A stretch of DNA of 33,914 bases, taken from NCBI GenBank assembly GCA_022564475.1, contig JADFLJ010000006.1, positions 1 through 33,914 on the forward strand, read 5' to 3'. How positions within the stretch are numbered: position 1 is the stretch's first letter; each line of letters begins with the position of its first letter. Positions 2,858-7,793 of this stretch are shown here, piece by piece. The stretch comes from Pseudomonadota bacterium. GTDB taxonomy: Bacteria > Pseudomonadota > Gammaproteobacteria > Steroidobacterales > Woeseiaceae. Made by a program: the position numbers and the translations under genes. The notes beneath the pieces were generated by a model. The model had not been told where the DNA came from, did no database searches, and saw only the letters and a list, made by a program, of their open reading frames with translations.

Positions 2858-4144
2858 ATGCGCCGGCTCCTGTTGATCCTGACCCTGATCATTGCCGGCG
2901 AGATGGTCTTCGGCTTGCCGTTTCACACGGCGCGATATTTTCGGCCGACCATGCTCGAAGTCTTCGGTTTTAGCAACACGCAGCTGGGCGACTTATTCGC
3001 CGTTTACGGCATCGCGGCGATGCTGGCCTATTTTCCGGGCGGCGCATTGGCAGATCGTTTTTCTGAACGTTTCCAGTTGAGCGTGTCACTGTTCGCAACC
3101 GCGGCCGGTGGCCTCTATATGGCGACAATCCCCGGCGCCCCGCAAATGGCTGCGTTGTACGGCTACTGGGGTATATCGACAATTTTTCTGTTCTGGGGTG
3201 CGTTGATCCGGGCAACGCGCGATTGGGGCGGCCGACACTCGCAGGGACGCGCGTTTGGCATTCTCGAAGGTGGTCGCGGCTTGACGGCTGCGGTGGTCGC
3301 GAGTGTTGCGGTTAGTATATTTGCAGCGCTTATGCCGGAAACTGTGGAGCTCGCGTCGGATGCGGAGCGCCGAGCAGCATTCAGCAAGGTCATCCTGACG
3401 TATTCCGCAATAACGGCCGCGGTAGGAATGTTGGCCTGGACGTTGATTCCCGTGTCCAAGGGAGCAACGCATGCACGGCCAAATCCGCTGGCCGGCATGG
3501 CCGTCGTAGCGGGAAGGCCCATCGTCTGGGCGCAGGCGGCGATTATCGTATGTGCCTATTGCGGCTTCAAGGGAACCGACAACTATTCATTATATGCCGT
3601 GCAGGTACTCGGTATGAATGAGGTCGATGCTGCCCGATTCGCGACCTGGGGTGCCTACATTCGCCCGTTCGCTGCAATCGCAGCGGGCCTGTGTGCCGAT
3701 CGATTCGATGCGGCACGCTCCATTGGCGTAGCGTTCCTGATCTTGGTGCTGGCGTATTTGCCGCTTTCAATGTTTACGCCCGACACGTCCGGAGTGAACC
3801 TGATCTATGCGAACATTTTCATCAGTTTCTTCGCCGTCTTCGCCATCAGGGGTATCTACTTCGCATTACTCGAGGAAAACAAAACCCCACCGCATGTCAC
3901 AGGTGCTGCGGTCGGCATGGTATCGCTGATTGGATATATGCCGGAGATTTTCTTCGCTTCAATAGCGGGCCGGATACTCGACGCAAATCCAGGTGTTGAA
4001 GGATTTCACAATTATTTTATGTTTCTTGCGAGTATCATGCTCGCAGGAGTTGCTGCTGTCGCATGGCTTATTTGGCTACGGCGGCGGGGCGTAGAGAAGC
4101 TATGGCCGGTGCAGCTTGAAAGCCGCGGGAGTGGTTTGTCTTAA
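2858..4144 (+). CDS. MFS transporter
   Basis: A 428-residue protein with about 12 hydrophobic segments, typical of a major facilitator superfamily secondary transporter. The first cytoplasmic loop carries GGALADRFSER, matching MFS motif A (G-x3-DRF-xxR). I chose the ATG at 2858 rather than an in-frame start at 2762 because the longer form would overlap the permease by 83 bases and add a non-hydrophobic leader, while 2858 starts a first transmembrane helix directly and has a purine-rich GGCAGAG upstream. General architecture recalls sugar-phosphate or nitrate/anion MFS members, but no substrate motif is decisive. It sits 13 bases behind the ABC permease and 13 bases before the next gene's start, so the four genes are probably one transcript. 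Confidence 0.9.
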   Translation: MRRLLLILTLIIAGEMVFGLPFHTARYFRPTMLEVFGFSNTQLGDLFAVYGIAAMLAYFPGGALADRFSERFQLSVSLFATAAGGLYMATIPGAPQMAALYGYWGISTIFLFWGALIRATRDWGGRHSQGRAFGILEGGRGLTAAVVASVAVSIFAALMPETVELASDAERRAAFSKVILTYSAITAAVGMLAWTLIPVSKGATHARPNPLAGMAVVAGRPIVWAQAAIIVCAYCGFKGTDNYSLYAVQVLGMNEVDAARFATWGAYIRPFAAIAAGLCADRFDAARSIGVAFLILVLAYLPLSMFTPDTSGVNLIYANIFISFFAVFAIRGIYFALLEENKTPPHVTGAAVGMVSLIGYMPEIFFASIAGRILDANPGVEGFHNYFMFLASIMLAGVAAVAWLIWLRRRGVEKLWPVQLESRGSGLS

Positions 4145-4157
4145 TCAGGAGAGTGTC

Positions 4158-5069
4158 ATGCAAAAATATCTAATATTGTTAGCAGCGCTGGCGCTGGCTG
4201 CGTGTCAGCAAGCGACTGAAGAAACCGCTGTGGAAGAAGCTGCTACAGATGAGTCTGCTGTTGAAGCAACACAAGCAGCTGCGCCGAGTCTTGCAGATGT
4301 GCTGGCGGCACAGTCGGATGAGATGAAAGCGCGATATCAATATCGCCACCCGCAGGAGACGCTGGAATTTTTTGGTATTGAATCCGGAATGACCGTTGTC
4401 GAAGCCTTTCCGGGCCGTGGCTGGTACACGCATTTGTTGGTGCCATTGCTGGGCAGCGAAGGGCACATTATCGCCGTCAACTACCCGATCGAAATCTGGC
4501 CGTTATTCCCCTTCGGCAACGAGGAATTTGTGCAGCGCATGAGTACATGGGCGACGGATTTTCCCGCGGGCGTGGACGAGTGGCGTGGCGAAAATTCAGC
4601 GGGAATCAGCGCTTATACGTTCGGCTCCATACCGGACGAGCTGGCGGGTACAGCCGACGTCGTGTTTTTCGCGCGCGTTCTACACAATCTTGCGAACGCT
4701 GAAAACGCAGGTGAGGGCGAGTTCCTGACAACGGCACTTGCAGATGCGTACTCGTTACTCAAGCCGGGCGGTGTATTTGCTGTGGTGCAGCACGAAGCAC
4801 GTGCTGAGATGAGCGATGAGTTTGCGAACGGCACGCAAGGTTATCTCAAGAAAGACTTCGTCATTGCTCAAGTAGAAGCGGCGGGCCTGGAGTTTGTTGG
4901 CGAAATCGCGATCAACGCCAACGAAAACGATCAGCCCTCAGCGAGCGATATCGTGTGGCGCTTACCGCCAACCTATTTAGGTGCCGATGACGACGAAGAG
5001 TTGCGGGCAGCCATGGATGAGATTGGCGAGTCCAATCGCATGACGCTCAAGTTTCGCAAGCCGGAATAG
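4158..5069 (+). CDS. Predicted lipoprotein with class I methyltransferase-like fold (COG4798-like)
   Basis: 303 residues. The N-terminus is a lipoprotein signal with lipobox LAAC and Cys16, followed by a low-complexity Glu/Ala/Thr linker (to about residue 45). The body looks like a class I SAM-methyltransferase: VVEAFPGRGWYTHLLVPLLG with its glycine-rich loop, GHIIAVN as strand 2, and a later ADVVFFARVLHNL and LKPGGVFAVVQHEA, as in COG4798 'predicted methyltransferase' proteins. The canonical ExGxGxG loop is degraded (EAFPGRGWYT). A lipid-anchored periplasmic methyltransferase is odd, because SAM is cytosolic; the fold may bind something else. ATG 4158 is preceded by AGGAGAG at 4147-4153 with good spacing. 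The fold is fairly clear, the activity is unknown. Confidence 0.85.
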   Translation: MQKYLILLAALALAACQQATEETAVEEAATDESAVEATQAAAPSLADVLAAQSDEMKARYQYRHPQETLEFFGIESGMTVVEAFPGRGWYTHLLVPLLGSEGHIIAVNYPIEIWPLFPFGNEEFVQRMSTWATDFPAGVDEWRGENSAGISAYTFGSIPDELAGTADVVFFARVLHNLANAENAGEGEFLTTALADAYSLLKPGGVFAVVQHEARAEMSDEFANGTQGYLKKDFVIAQVEAAGLEFVGEIAINANENDQPSASDIVWRLPPTYLGADDDEELRAAMDEIGESNRMTLKFRKPE

Positions 5070-5080
5070 TTGCGGGGGTT

Positions 5081-5345
5081 AGTAGTCCAACAAGGTGGGT
5101 TTGATGGGTTCAGCGAGTTGTGAAGCGGTTGACCGCCAGGCGCGTCTCGCCGGTAATGGCGAGTCCTTGCCAAGAGGCGCAACACCGCGGACGACCGCTT
5201 CACAACTCGCCCGGAGGGAGCCACCCGAATGATCCAATACGGCGTTGCAGCCCTTGTAAAGGACATGCCATTCACTGCGGACTACGCCTTGTCTTGGATC
5301 ATTCGGGTGGCTCTGAACCCATCAAACCCACCTTGTTGGACTACT
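5081..5345. repeat. 265-bp element of three nested perfect inverted repeats (three-way-junction fold)
   Basis: Outer arms 5081-5113 and 5313-5345 are perfect 33-base inverted copies. Inside them lie two side-by-side hairpins: arms 5113-5129 / 5194-5210 (17 bases, perfect) and arms 5218-5237 / 5294-5313 (20 bases, perfect). The first hairpin's loop holds a smaller stem CTCGCC / GGCGAG (5146-5151 / 5158-5163), and the second loop holds CCTT-GTA-AAGG (5252-5262). The whole folds as a Y- or T-shaped three-way junction in either DNA strand or RNA. It lies between convergent genes: 11 bases after the methyltransferase-like gene, and its right arm contains the stop codon (5341-5343) of the nuclease gene. 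There is no T-run, so it is not a simple intrinsic terminator. A non-autonomous mobile element is the favoured reading. Confidence 0.9.
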
Positions 5346-7188
5346 TGTTGCTCAGATCGAGCCCGATGATAATGGGGTCGTGGTCAGACGCCCGGTAGGG
5401 CGTCGAGCCGTCGAAAATAGCGGGATCACGACCGTTCTCGAGGTTGTAGTCATGTGCCGGTGATTCGTCGGCGTTGATGTGCCATTCGATGGTTTGTGCA
5501 ACCTGTGATGACAGGCTCGGCGATGCCAGCGCATGATCGAGTGCGCCGGACTGGCTACCGAAGATATACGAATAGGCCTCGGCCTTGTTCCCGAATTCGA
5601 GCAGATTGACGAAACCGGCATGGGCCAACACCTGTAAAGGATCCTCCTGCCCGTAGGCGTTCAAGTCGCCGACGATCAGGAAGTCCGGGTCGCCGCTAGC
5701 CGTTGGGTCCGATGCCAGCCAGTTGACGATCGCCGTGGCCGCAGCGCTGCGTGTTTGATTGCAATTGCCCTGGCCGTCTTGTCTGTTGGGGTCGCCATCC
5801 CTCTCGCAGCTCGAAGCTTTGGACTTGAAATGATTCACCACGATCGTCAGTCGCGCGTCATTGCTGCGTTGTGAAAACGTCTGCGCCAGCGCAGCACGGT
5901 TTCGATGGTCTTTAAACCGCGGATCGATACTTGAATCCAGAATCGCATGCCTGCCGATTGTCCTGACGCGCGCCGGCTTGAAGACAAAGCCCGTCTTGAT
6001 TGCGTCATTACCGACAGTGCCCGTGTCCAGAAACGCGTATGTGTTGGCTCCTGCCGTCGCATTCAGTGAATTGACAATCACCTGTAGAGAGTCATGCGCA
6101 TTATTCTCCAGCTCAATCAGGCCGACGATGTCGGCGTCGATCATTAGCAAGGCGGTCGTGGTTTTCTCGAGTTGTCGCAGCCGTTCTGCCGCACTGTCGG
6201 CACCGCGGCAGCCGCTGCGAGAAGCGGGCCCGCAAATTCTGTCACCGCTATCGACGGTCGAAAACAGGTTAAGCACGTTGAAGCTCGCGACACGCAGCTC
6301 ACCGCCAATATCCGGAGCACCGGGCCGCGGATTGTCTGTGACGAATTTCGGCCGGGATGTCGGCATCAATCGCCAGGTTTCCCTGCCGTTGCCGCCGCTG
6401 CCGCGCGCAAAGCGCAGGTTGCCCGTCAGATTTTCCACCGAGTCGCCGACGCGTATGCTGCTGCCCGACGTCAATGCAGTTTCGAGGTGCCGGATCGGTG
6501 AATTGGATTGATTGCGATAGCCATCGTCGAGTACGAGCATGCGAGCAGCAATGGCCTCACGGTGCGACGCGTAGCCCGTCACGTCGGGCGAATTGCCGTT
6601 CGTAAACTGAAACAGTCGGCCACCAGAGGCCAGCGTCAGCTCGCCATAGCGTTCGAGGAAATAAAGCTCATTGATCGTCAGCGGCTCAGCGATTCGTACC
6701 AACATGCCTTCGAATCGCTCGAGGTCGGCGATTGGCTCGCCATCCGAATTCGCAATAGTGTTTGTAGCTGGAAGGACTAATGAAATGGCCTGGACTGTTC
6801 CCGTGCCGATGATCGATACCGTTGCCGCGTTGATCTGGGTTTCGCCGAAGTATTCTTTCACGACGCCCGTCACGATGACTTTGTTGCCGACACGTACATC
6901 GACCATCGCGCTTGCACCTTCGTACACAAACACACCATCGGAAGTTGCTGCATCCGCGTCCGGGTGTTCGGCCTGAAGATAGAACCCGCCCAGATCGCCA
7001 TGTTCGCCTTTGCCATCGCTCTGAAAGTCGCCTGTGACGATTCCTTCGACACTGACAGTCTCACCTTCCATCGGGCTGGCCGGCCCGTTGCCCTGGACAT
7101 CGGCAATGGTGATTCCGTCGATCGCGCTGCCGCCACAAGCGGCGATCGGCAACAGAATGAGTGCGAACACGTAGCAGGAGTTTTTCAT
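5341..7188 (-). CDS. ExeM/NucH-like extracellular endonuclease, predicted lipoprotein
   Basis: 615 residues. The signal ends in lipobox IAAC with Cys18, so the protein should be anchored outside the cytoplasm. The N-terminal half has an OB-fold-like segment (VSVEGIVTGDFQ, GNKVIVTGVVKEYFGETQI) as in ExeM/NucH nucleases. The C-terminal half is an endonuclease/exonuclease/phosphatase domain: RVASFNVLNLF, IGLIELENNA, VVNHFKSK, FLIVGDLNAYGQEDP, the catalytic-type LDHAL and the terminal ASDHDPI. It probably scavenges extracellular DNA for phosphate or nucleosides. I chose the ATG at 7188 because longer in-frame starts would run into the divergent gene and mask the signal peptide. The last Lys-stop codons lie in the right arm of the inverted-repeat element. 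Confidence 0.9.
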   Translation of the reverse strand: MKNSCYVFALILLPIAACGGSAIDGITIADVQGNGPASPMEGETVSVEGIVTGDFQSDGKGEHGDLGGFYLQAEHPDADAATSDGVFVYEGASAMVDVRVGNKVIVTGVVKEYFGETQINAATVSIIGTGTVQAISLVLPATNTIANSDGEPIADLERFEGMLVRIAEPLTINELYFLERYGELTLASGGRLFQFTNGNSPDVTGYASHREAIAARMLVLDDGYRNQSNSPIRHLETALTSGSSIRVGDSVENLTGNLRFARGSGGNGRETWRLMPTSRPKFVTDNPRPGAPDIGGELRVASFNVLNLFSTVDSGDRICGPASRSGCRGADSAAERLRQLEKTTTALLMIDADIVGLIELENNAHDSLQVIVNSLNATAGANTYAFLDTGTVGNDAIKTGFVFKPARVRTIGRHAILDSSIDPRFKDHRNRAALAQTFSQRSNDARLTIVVNHFKSKASSCERDGDPNRQDGQGNCNQTRSAAATAIVNWLASDPTASGDPDFLIVGDLNAYGQEDPLQVLAHAGFVNLLEFGNKAEAYSYIFGSQSGALDHALASPSLSSQVAQTIEWHINADESPAHDYNLENGRDPAIFDGSTPYRASDHDPIIIGLDLSNK

Positions 7189-7216
7189 GGCTGCGGTCAG
7201 GCTATTGACCCATTGA

Positions 7217-7222
7217 ATATTA
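7217..7222 (-). promoter_or_regulatory. Extended -10 element for the nuclease gene
   Basis: On the minus strand the sequence reads TGC-TAATAT, an extended -10 box (TGn plus a 5/6 match to TATAAT). It would give a transcript start about 20 bases before the ATG at 7188. No convincing -35 is visible, which is compatible with extended -10 promoters. The 77-base gap to the divergent flavin reductase gene must hold both promoters. Confidence 0.45.
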
Positions 7223-7265
7223 GCAGTATCCTGCTGACCTTGTTCCTCCCGAAGTTTTAACAATA

Positions 7266-7793
7266 ATGTCGCTATCATCCGCAGAGTTTCGCGCCACCAT
7301 GTCGCTGTATCCGACGGGCGTTTGCATCATTGCCACGCAGATCGAAACACAAGCGCCGTTCGGCATAACGGTAAATTCGCTCACCTCATTGTCACTCGAG
7401 CCGCCATTATTGATGTGGAATCTGCAAAAGAGCTCCGATACTTACAAGGACTGGCGGGATGCGGAGTTTTTTGGCGTCAGCATGTTACGGATCGAGCAAG
7501 CTCACCTGGCGCAACGCTTCGCAGTCCGCGGCCAACACGATTTTGAGCAAGGCGAGCTGGCGCGCGGTGAAACTGGCTGCCCAATATTGGAAGAATGCCT
7601 CGCGACGTTCGAGTGCAAGCTGCACGCACGTTACGAGGAGGGCGATCACGTCATCATGATCGGTGAGGTACTCGCGGCATCGCCACGCTCTGATTTGGCG
7701 CCATTGACCTACCACAAGGGCCTTTACGGTAGCGTCGATACAGGGCGAGTGCTGAATCAGGCAACGAATGACGCCAATCGCGGTCGGAGATAG
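7266..7793 (+). CDS. Flavin reductase-like (FMN-binding split barrel) protein
   Basis: 175 residues, the usual length of the flavin reductase-like family (the reductase component of two-component monooxygenases, which use NAD(P)H to reduce FMN/FAD). The N-terminus MSLYPTGVCIIAT corresponds to the family's FxTGVxVVT segment, followed by GITVNSLTSLSLEPPLLMW (usually GxTxxSFxSVSLxPPLv), which lines the flavin site. Later HARYEEGDHVIMIGEVL matches the family's GDHxIxxGxV strand, and PLTYHKGLYGSV the terminal PLxYxxGxY. No partner monooxygenase is adjacent, so the role is open. The gene diverges from the nuclease gene; the ATG at 7266 has no strong Shine-Dalgarno sequence. Confidence 0.88.
   Translation: MSLSSAEFRATMSLYPTGVCIIATQIETQAPFGITVNSLTSLSLEPPLLMWNLQKSSDTYKDWRDAEFFGVSMLRIEQAHLAQRFAVRGQHDFEQGELARGETGCPILEECLATFECKLHARYEEGDHVIMIGEVLAASPRSDLAPLTYHKGLYGSVDTGRVLNQATNDANRGRR

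Follow-up and report, generated by a model that had tools for sequence, protein, structure and literature searches.

What kind of element is the 265-bp stretch at positions 5081-5345 of the window (the whole 33,914-nucleotide stretch of DNA analysed), and why do its arms pair so perfectly? It lies between a gene at 4116-5069, for which no family match was found at E 0.001, and a nuclease gene of the ExeM/NucH type. A sequence-only reading had proposed a non-autonomous element moved as folded single-stranded DNA, a structured RNA or a large two-way transcription stop, and had taken the identity of the arms as a sign of recent spread or active maintenance.

Parts and fold of the element

The arms followed one another in the order A-B-B'-C-C'-A' in both predicted folds. 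The outer arm A (5081-5113, + strand), annotated as left terminal inverted repeat and structural stem, and the outer arm A' (5313-5345, + strand), the right terminal inverted repeat and perfect complement of A, were 33 nt long with 100% identity in the inverted-repeat search. Nested between them were hairpin unit B (5113-5210, + strand), with a conserved inner part and a stem formed by 5113-5136 and 5187-5210 (92% over 24 nt, 17 perfect counted from the base); the centre of the B-C linker (5211-5217, + strand), which falls within a conserved CGCCC..GGGAG motif in an alignment of 25 copies; and hairpin unit C (5218-5313, - strand), with a stem formed by 5218-5240 and 5291-5313 (96% over 23 nt, 20 perfect counted from the base). 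The predicted fold reached -175 kcal/mol for the + strand with RNA parameters (shuffle mean -90.97, z -15.8) and -107 for the - strand with DNA parameters (z -15.85), and 0 of 200 shuffles were as low in either case, which bears out the claim that nested perfect arms of 33, 17 and 20 bases are far beyond chance. The stems of B and C were unlike in letters; the inner part of C, reversed, resembled the inner part of B by eye, which gives the element the appearance of one hairpin unit present twice, in mirror image, within an outer stem. A covariance model made from B units alone also detected, on the opposite strand, the C-type units that other copies have.

The nuclease ORF (5341-7278, - strand) ended within the right arm, its stop codon being the TAG inside GTAGTCC (5341-5343, minus strand), as the sequence-only reading had held. 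Across the family, about 21 of 72 copies gave a neighbouring gene its stop codon (longest-ORF rule; two repeats of one site, L245 and L246, omitted), in many cases because the flanking TA together with the first G of the element reads TAG. This frequent position at gene ends would suit a large two-way transcription stop, but the T-run of an intrinsic terminator was absent after the hairpins in the window sequence, in agreement with the earlier judgement that no terminator explains the arms, and CTAG targets close to stop codons, together with the loss of insertions in genes, also account for the position. A transcription stop is, in our opinion, quite improbable.

Dispersal of the family and pairing of its arms

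The element was not single-copy. Long matches to the 265 bases were found at 12 places in its own genome (83% complete, 256 contigs), many of them at contig ends, so that a single copy split between contigs may in some cases account for two places; further places had outer arms only (remnants). Copies break draft assemblies, and several contigs of this genome end within them. DNA matches were found in 16 of the 60 genomes searched, and of the 296 genomes of the order scanned with the covariance model 48 were positive (own genome included in both counts), from 15 of 68 genera; eight of the positives had at least 12 scored places. Scanning named genomes with a pattern turned up 67 stretches with the inner hairpin, mostly gammaproteobacterial: carriers included Woeseia, Woeseiaceae, Porticoccaceae, Marinobacter halodurans, Alcanivorax, Thiohalobacter thiocyanaticus, Candidatus Thiodiazotropha, Sedimenticola and one Thiobacillus, and for some stretches the record titles gave only Proteobacteria. 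Both the model and the pattern searches are biased towards copies with a good B unit. The same B-core pattern gave 0 stretches in viral contigs, and blastn with other copies as queries gave no match in phages and plasmids. The repeat is short (265 bp), multi-copy, devoid of a transposase gene and bounded by terminal inverted repeats (33-nt perfect arms in the window; 96 armed copies were collected, having been picked for their arms); the 265-base stretch is one copy of a dispersed family of non-autonomous foldback MITEs, widespread in uncultured and cultured gammaproteobacteria.

One site could be compared between relatives. The region between purE and purK was matched in 59 of 73 genomes and looked at in 30 loci: two relatives carried a copy there (L056 and L058, alike in 216 of 265 bases) and the other 28 had no intact copy, the relatives having diverged too far to give an empty site exact to the base. 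In one of these 28 (L272, G302), the purE-purK gap contained a short GGTCCACTAG piece which may be what is left of an element end at this site. Together with the dispersed copies, presence in two relatives against no intact copy in 28 supports the recent spread suggested earlier. The other half of that suggestion, active maintenance at a site, was contradicted by one copy: the outer pairs had 1 mismatch in 33 in L056 and 7 in 33 in L058, where the arms have drifted apart and pairing has therefore not been maintained. This decay speaks against a host function at purE-purK. From this pair of copies, and from how widely the arm scores varied, we infer that resident copies decay and that the family keeps its pairing through turnover.

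Pairing across the family was very strong. In 25 aligned copies (L003 and L057, with an insertion in B, left out), 96.0% of cells were paired against 35-40% with the partners slid, and 73 of 93 pairs were doubly changed against 49.9 in shuffles, a value reached by 0 of 500 shuffles; the structure tested was derived from the same alignment. All 28 of 28 outer pairs were perfect in 32 of 68 non-redundant copies, a set picked for having arms (68 of 71 non-redundant copies, out of the 96; L191, L225 and L233, with no regular B or C stem, were dropped). The collection of arms started from one hit per locus and left out L222 and L243; no arms were obtained for L098, L099 and L102, and 14 more hits were left out, 7 of them at the end of their stretch. 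The flank, gene-position and IS630-end counts given in this work, and an earlier count of wobble pairs, used a set lacking 10 copies added later. Among 14 copies chosen for their perfect arms and bearing GT[GA][GC]TCC ends, 13 distinct 32-nt arms occurred, with a mean difference of 7.5 bases. Outer arms which are perfect and yet variable in letters keep their pairing rather than their sequence.

Arms that are perfect and yet vary freely can be accounted for in two ways: pairing may have been selected as copies moved again and again, or one arm may be copied from the other. Under the second explanation, template switching or hairpin replication would have made the outer arms perfect with no selection for pairing, as the many perfect copies with widely different arms might suggest. 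The inner stems, however, also covary, with mismatches tolerated, and compensatory selection across many rounds yields the same pattern as copying; in addition, cleavage by Tc1/mariner enzymes is reported without a hairpin step in the portion of PMC2170065 available to us. Copying appears unlikely as the origin of the arms.

A third explanation is that the transcript is the selected form, a structured RNA or mRNA-end element like ERIC/NEMIS for which the MITE ends are merely the carrier. The very strong covariation in the stems speaks for this explanation, which takes in the structured RNA of the sequence-only reading, but does not separate RNA from DNA. On the top strand, B stems had 35 G-T against 13 A-C mismatches (p 0.002), as expected for a top-strand RNA, but the excess was not significant in A (34 vs. 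23) or C (16 vs. 9), and these wobble counts ignore relatedness; a single RNA argued from strand-biased wobble was rejected as weak and confined to B. No Rfam family was above its cut-off on the element in the window or at 7 loci (at the latter, mir-81 fell on one copy below its cut-off, and t44 was above cut-off outside the element). The arms of one copy had decayed at a fixed site (purE-purK, above), and copies occurred in every arrangement of neighbouring genes: 27 tandem forward, 19 tandem reverse, 18 divergent and 10 convergent among the 74 copies with enough flank, genes being called by longest ORF alone. RNA as the selected form is unlikely. Pairing probably matters at transposition or replication and not for a host function.

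Target site, transposases and variant ends

The flanks of the copies indicated a preferred target. The flanking dinucleotide was TA in 80 of 126 flanks and the base before it was C in 66 of these 80, both counts standing without a background count; TA was present on both sides of 27 of 63 copies, on one side of 26 and on neither side of 10 (these 63 came from 82 copies, the remaining 19 having other end motifs or no equal offset). In the window copy, TA precedes the element (5080-5081) but TT follows it (5345-5346), and a clean TA is thus not present at both sides; judged from the family ends, the element proper spans approximately 5082-5344. A preference for CTAG is also a property of IS630 itself. 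Insertion of an IS630-family element at TA, with duplication of the TA, is described in the part of PMC2170065 available to us.

The family is best explained, with a probability of roughly 0.7, as a non-autonomous foldback MITE moved by IS630 transposases encoded elsewhere. The outer arms would act as terminal inverted repeats, an IS630-family transposase (Tc1/mariner superfamily) would excise the element in trans, and insertion would follow at TA, preferably within CTAG, presumably with duplication of the TA. DDE_3 was found in 9 of 39 genomes (2/10 and 7/29) in a search which covered carriers alone. The two transposases scanned were identified as IS630 transposases by NCBIfam NF033545 (G000, E 1.5e-75; G028, E 2.2e-87), both in elements of approximately 1.2 kb with ends starting CTAGTG; such ends were likewise present on elements of G094, G120, G159 and a Thiodiazotropha genome. 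The IS630 element of G242 had other ends (CTAAATGACC), and for several DDE_3 transposase genes element ends were looked for and none was found. Forty-eight of 150 MITE ends agreed with an IS630 end in at least 13 of the 20 bases after CTAG, against 8.1% of 1675 CTAG places, the MITE ends including related copies and the control still containing element ends. These matches were mostly between different genomes; a MITE and an IS630 element with like ends in one genome were seen only in G094 (a single contig), where they shared a 17-base exact lead and 20 of 24 bases.

The arm of the window copy (GTAGTCCAACAAG) had no match among the IS630 ends found (6/20, chance level), so for this copy the link to IS630 runs through the family. 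A pattern search for window-type ends in 8 genomes gave no inward pair 1-1.6 kb apart, and no autonomous element, among the matches listed. Dispersal, TA/CTAG flanks and IS630 elements with similar ends together support the non-autonomous mobile element proposed earlier. To our knowledge, IS630-type transposition does not need inner stems, and the covariation of the inner stems is therefore left unexplained by IS630 mobilisation.

Two other candidates for a partner were tried and rejected. IS5-type transposases (PF01609) were present in 7 of 10 genomes; the family's ends were seen at 0 of the 13 loci inspected, which had CTAGGGAAGG.., CTAGCAGCC.. or other ends, or none that could be found (five loci of Marinobacter halodurans were outside the 13). 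A pattern search of 10 genomes for a longer element with the family's ends (20 stretches taken, part of them inspected) gave pairs approximately 160 and 265 bp apart, collapsed shorter pairs and unpaired ends. Two end-pattern matches in G094 were IS630 ends, and one end pair 1.4 kb apart (G021:C10) surrounded a 449-aa ORF read by eye as a host gene. In G094, an IS5-type element and an IS630 element each occupied the terminal CTAG of a MITE copy (L326, approximately 1313-1320, and L352, approximately 2533); MITE ends may themselves serve as targets.

The sequence-only reading had considered mobilisation through folded single-stranded DNA by a Y1 (HUH) transposase, as for REP/BIME-like or IS200/IS605-type elements. 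The whole element folds, its two inverted hairpins are reminiscent of BIMEs, and Y1 genes were present in 11 of 20 carriers, but 7 of the 12 non-carriers tested had them as well, and 9 of the 20 carriers (including G094, G085, G120 and G061) lacked them. Moreover, a scan of 27 Y1 loci with the model gave no core hairpin, neither of the two end patterns tried was present at loci L106-L133, and many ends of the family match IS630 ends instead. Mobilisation by such an enzyme was not supported by these counts and is very improbable.

The inner stems raise another possibility, to be held tentatively: the mirrored double-hairpin core could be an independent mobile structured module, kept in shape by covariation, which hitchhikes on different transposases, its folded single strand (DNA or RNA) serving a step beyond what transposases by themselves provide. 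A conserved core was found behind unlike terminal repeats, namely the IS630-like CTAGTG, TTACTAATGAG in Thiohalobacter, GGGAACCTCTGAAT in Alcanivorax and ACCAAGACAATCG in others, the B likeness of the copies from named genomes being there by selection, as they were picked by a B-core pattern. The C unit, which lay outside that pattern, was found by the model in some of the copies from named genomes (L197, L209 and L235). It was not found by the model in the Thiohalobacter TTACTAATGAG copies or at two Alcanivorax loci, and the case for a single intact double module is the weaker for it.

Several shortened and mosaic forms were observed. G159, G017 and G000 had many 37-bp end pairs (at least, among the matches listed), and in four such pairs (L025 1157, L026 1500, L373 283 and L377 1502) the initial 10 bases of one end ran directly into the final 27 of the other, each time with an identical junction; 37-bp pairs may have arisen by deletion between short CCA repeats or may represent a mobile unit of minimal size. 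Relatives of 160 bp with GTGTCCTGTCC ends and one inner hairpin, which keeps an AAGGCGC..GCAACGCC motif, were present in G021 and G005 (L165 1632-1851, L166 1384-1603, L167 and L168). At two loci of one genome (L203 850-1330 and L243 1-420), another repeat, a hairpin with GGGGTCGAACCGAAGTTTTT arms, was inserted within the B unit. The copies of Alcanivorax sp. S71-1-4 (L281, L285, L297 and L309) had GGGAACCTCTGAAT-type ends and were mosaics with one or two hairpins; L297 and L309 had CAA before and AAG after, L285 had TT on both sides, and no transposase matching GGGAACCTCTGAAT-type ends was found for the copies of this strain.

Comparison with known repeat families

Although the family is mobile DNA, its stems covary as strongly as those of a structured RNA, which makes it a clean case for asking why foldback elements keep folding; the candidate reasons are selection at transposition, arm copying and RNA function. 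Among known repeats, REP/BIME elements with RAYT also form palindromes in inverted pairs between genes; the units of the present family are much longer, and a Y1 gene is not associated with them. Correia/NEMIS and ERIC resemble the family in having TA at their ends, long stem-loops and the ability to alter mRNA, but differ, from the description in the part of PMC2229807 available, in being a stem-loop without arms or linker, as opposed to a three-way junction with mirrored units. CIR (Caulobacter, Brucella) has two long inverted repeats as two arms joined by a linker; according to the description in the same part of PMC2229807, it is set apart by its GANTC motif, by its other taxa and by a terminal inverted repeat not being reported there.

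A close known parallel is RUP of Streptococcus pneumoniae, an IS630-linked MITE which, in the parts of PMC2229807 and PMC3049150 available, is, like the present family, a short non-autonomous repeat with a TA target; its ends are IS630-like (IS630-Spn1), as are those of many copies here, and its transcript is base-paired, as that of a copy of the present family would be. RUP is 107 bp long and occurs in pneumococcus and close relatives, whereas the present family is approximately 265 bp long, has two extra conserved hairpins with freely varying stems and occurs in many gammaproteobacteria. A description of the family was not found in the open-access full-text literature. The family is known in kind; its architecture and its strongly covarying double-hairpin core are new.
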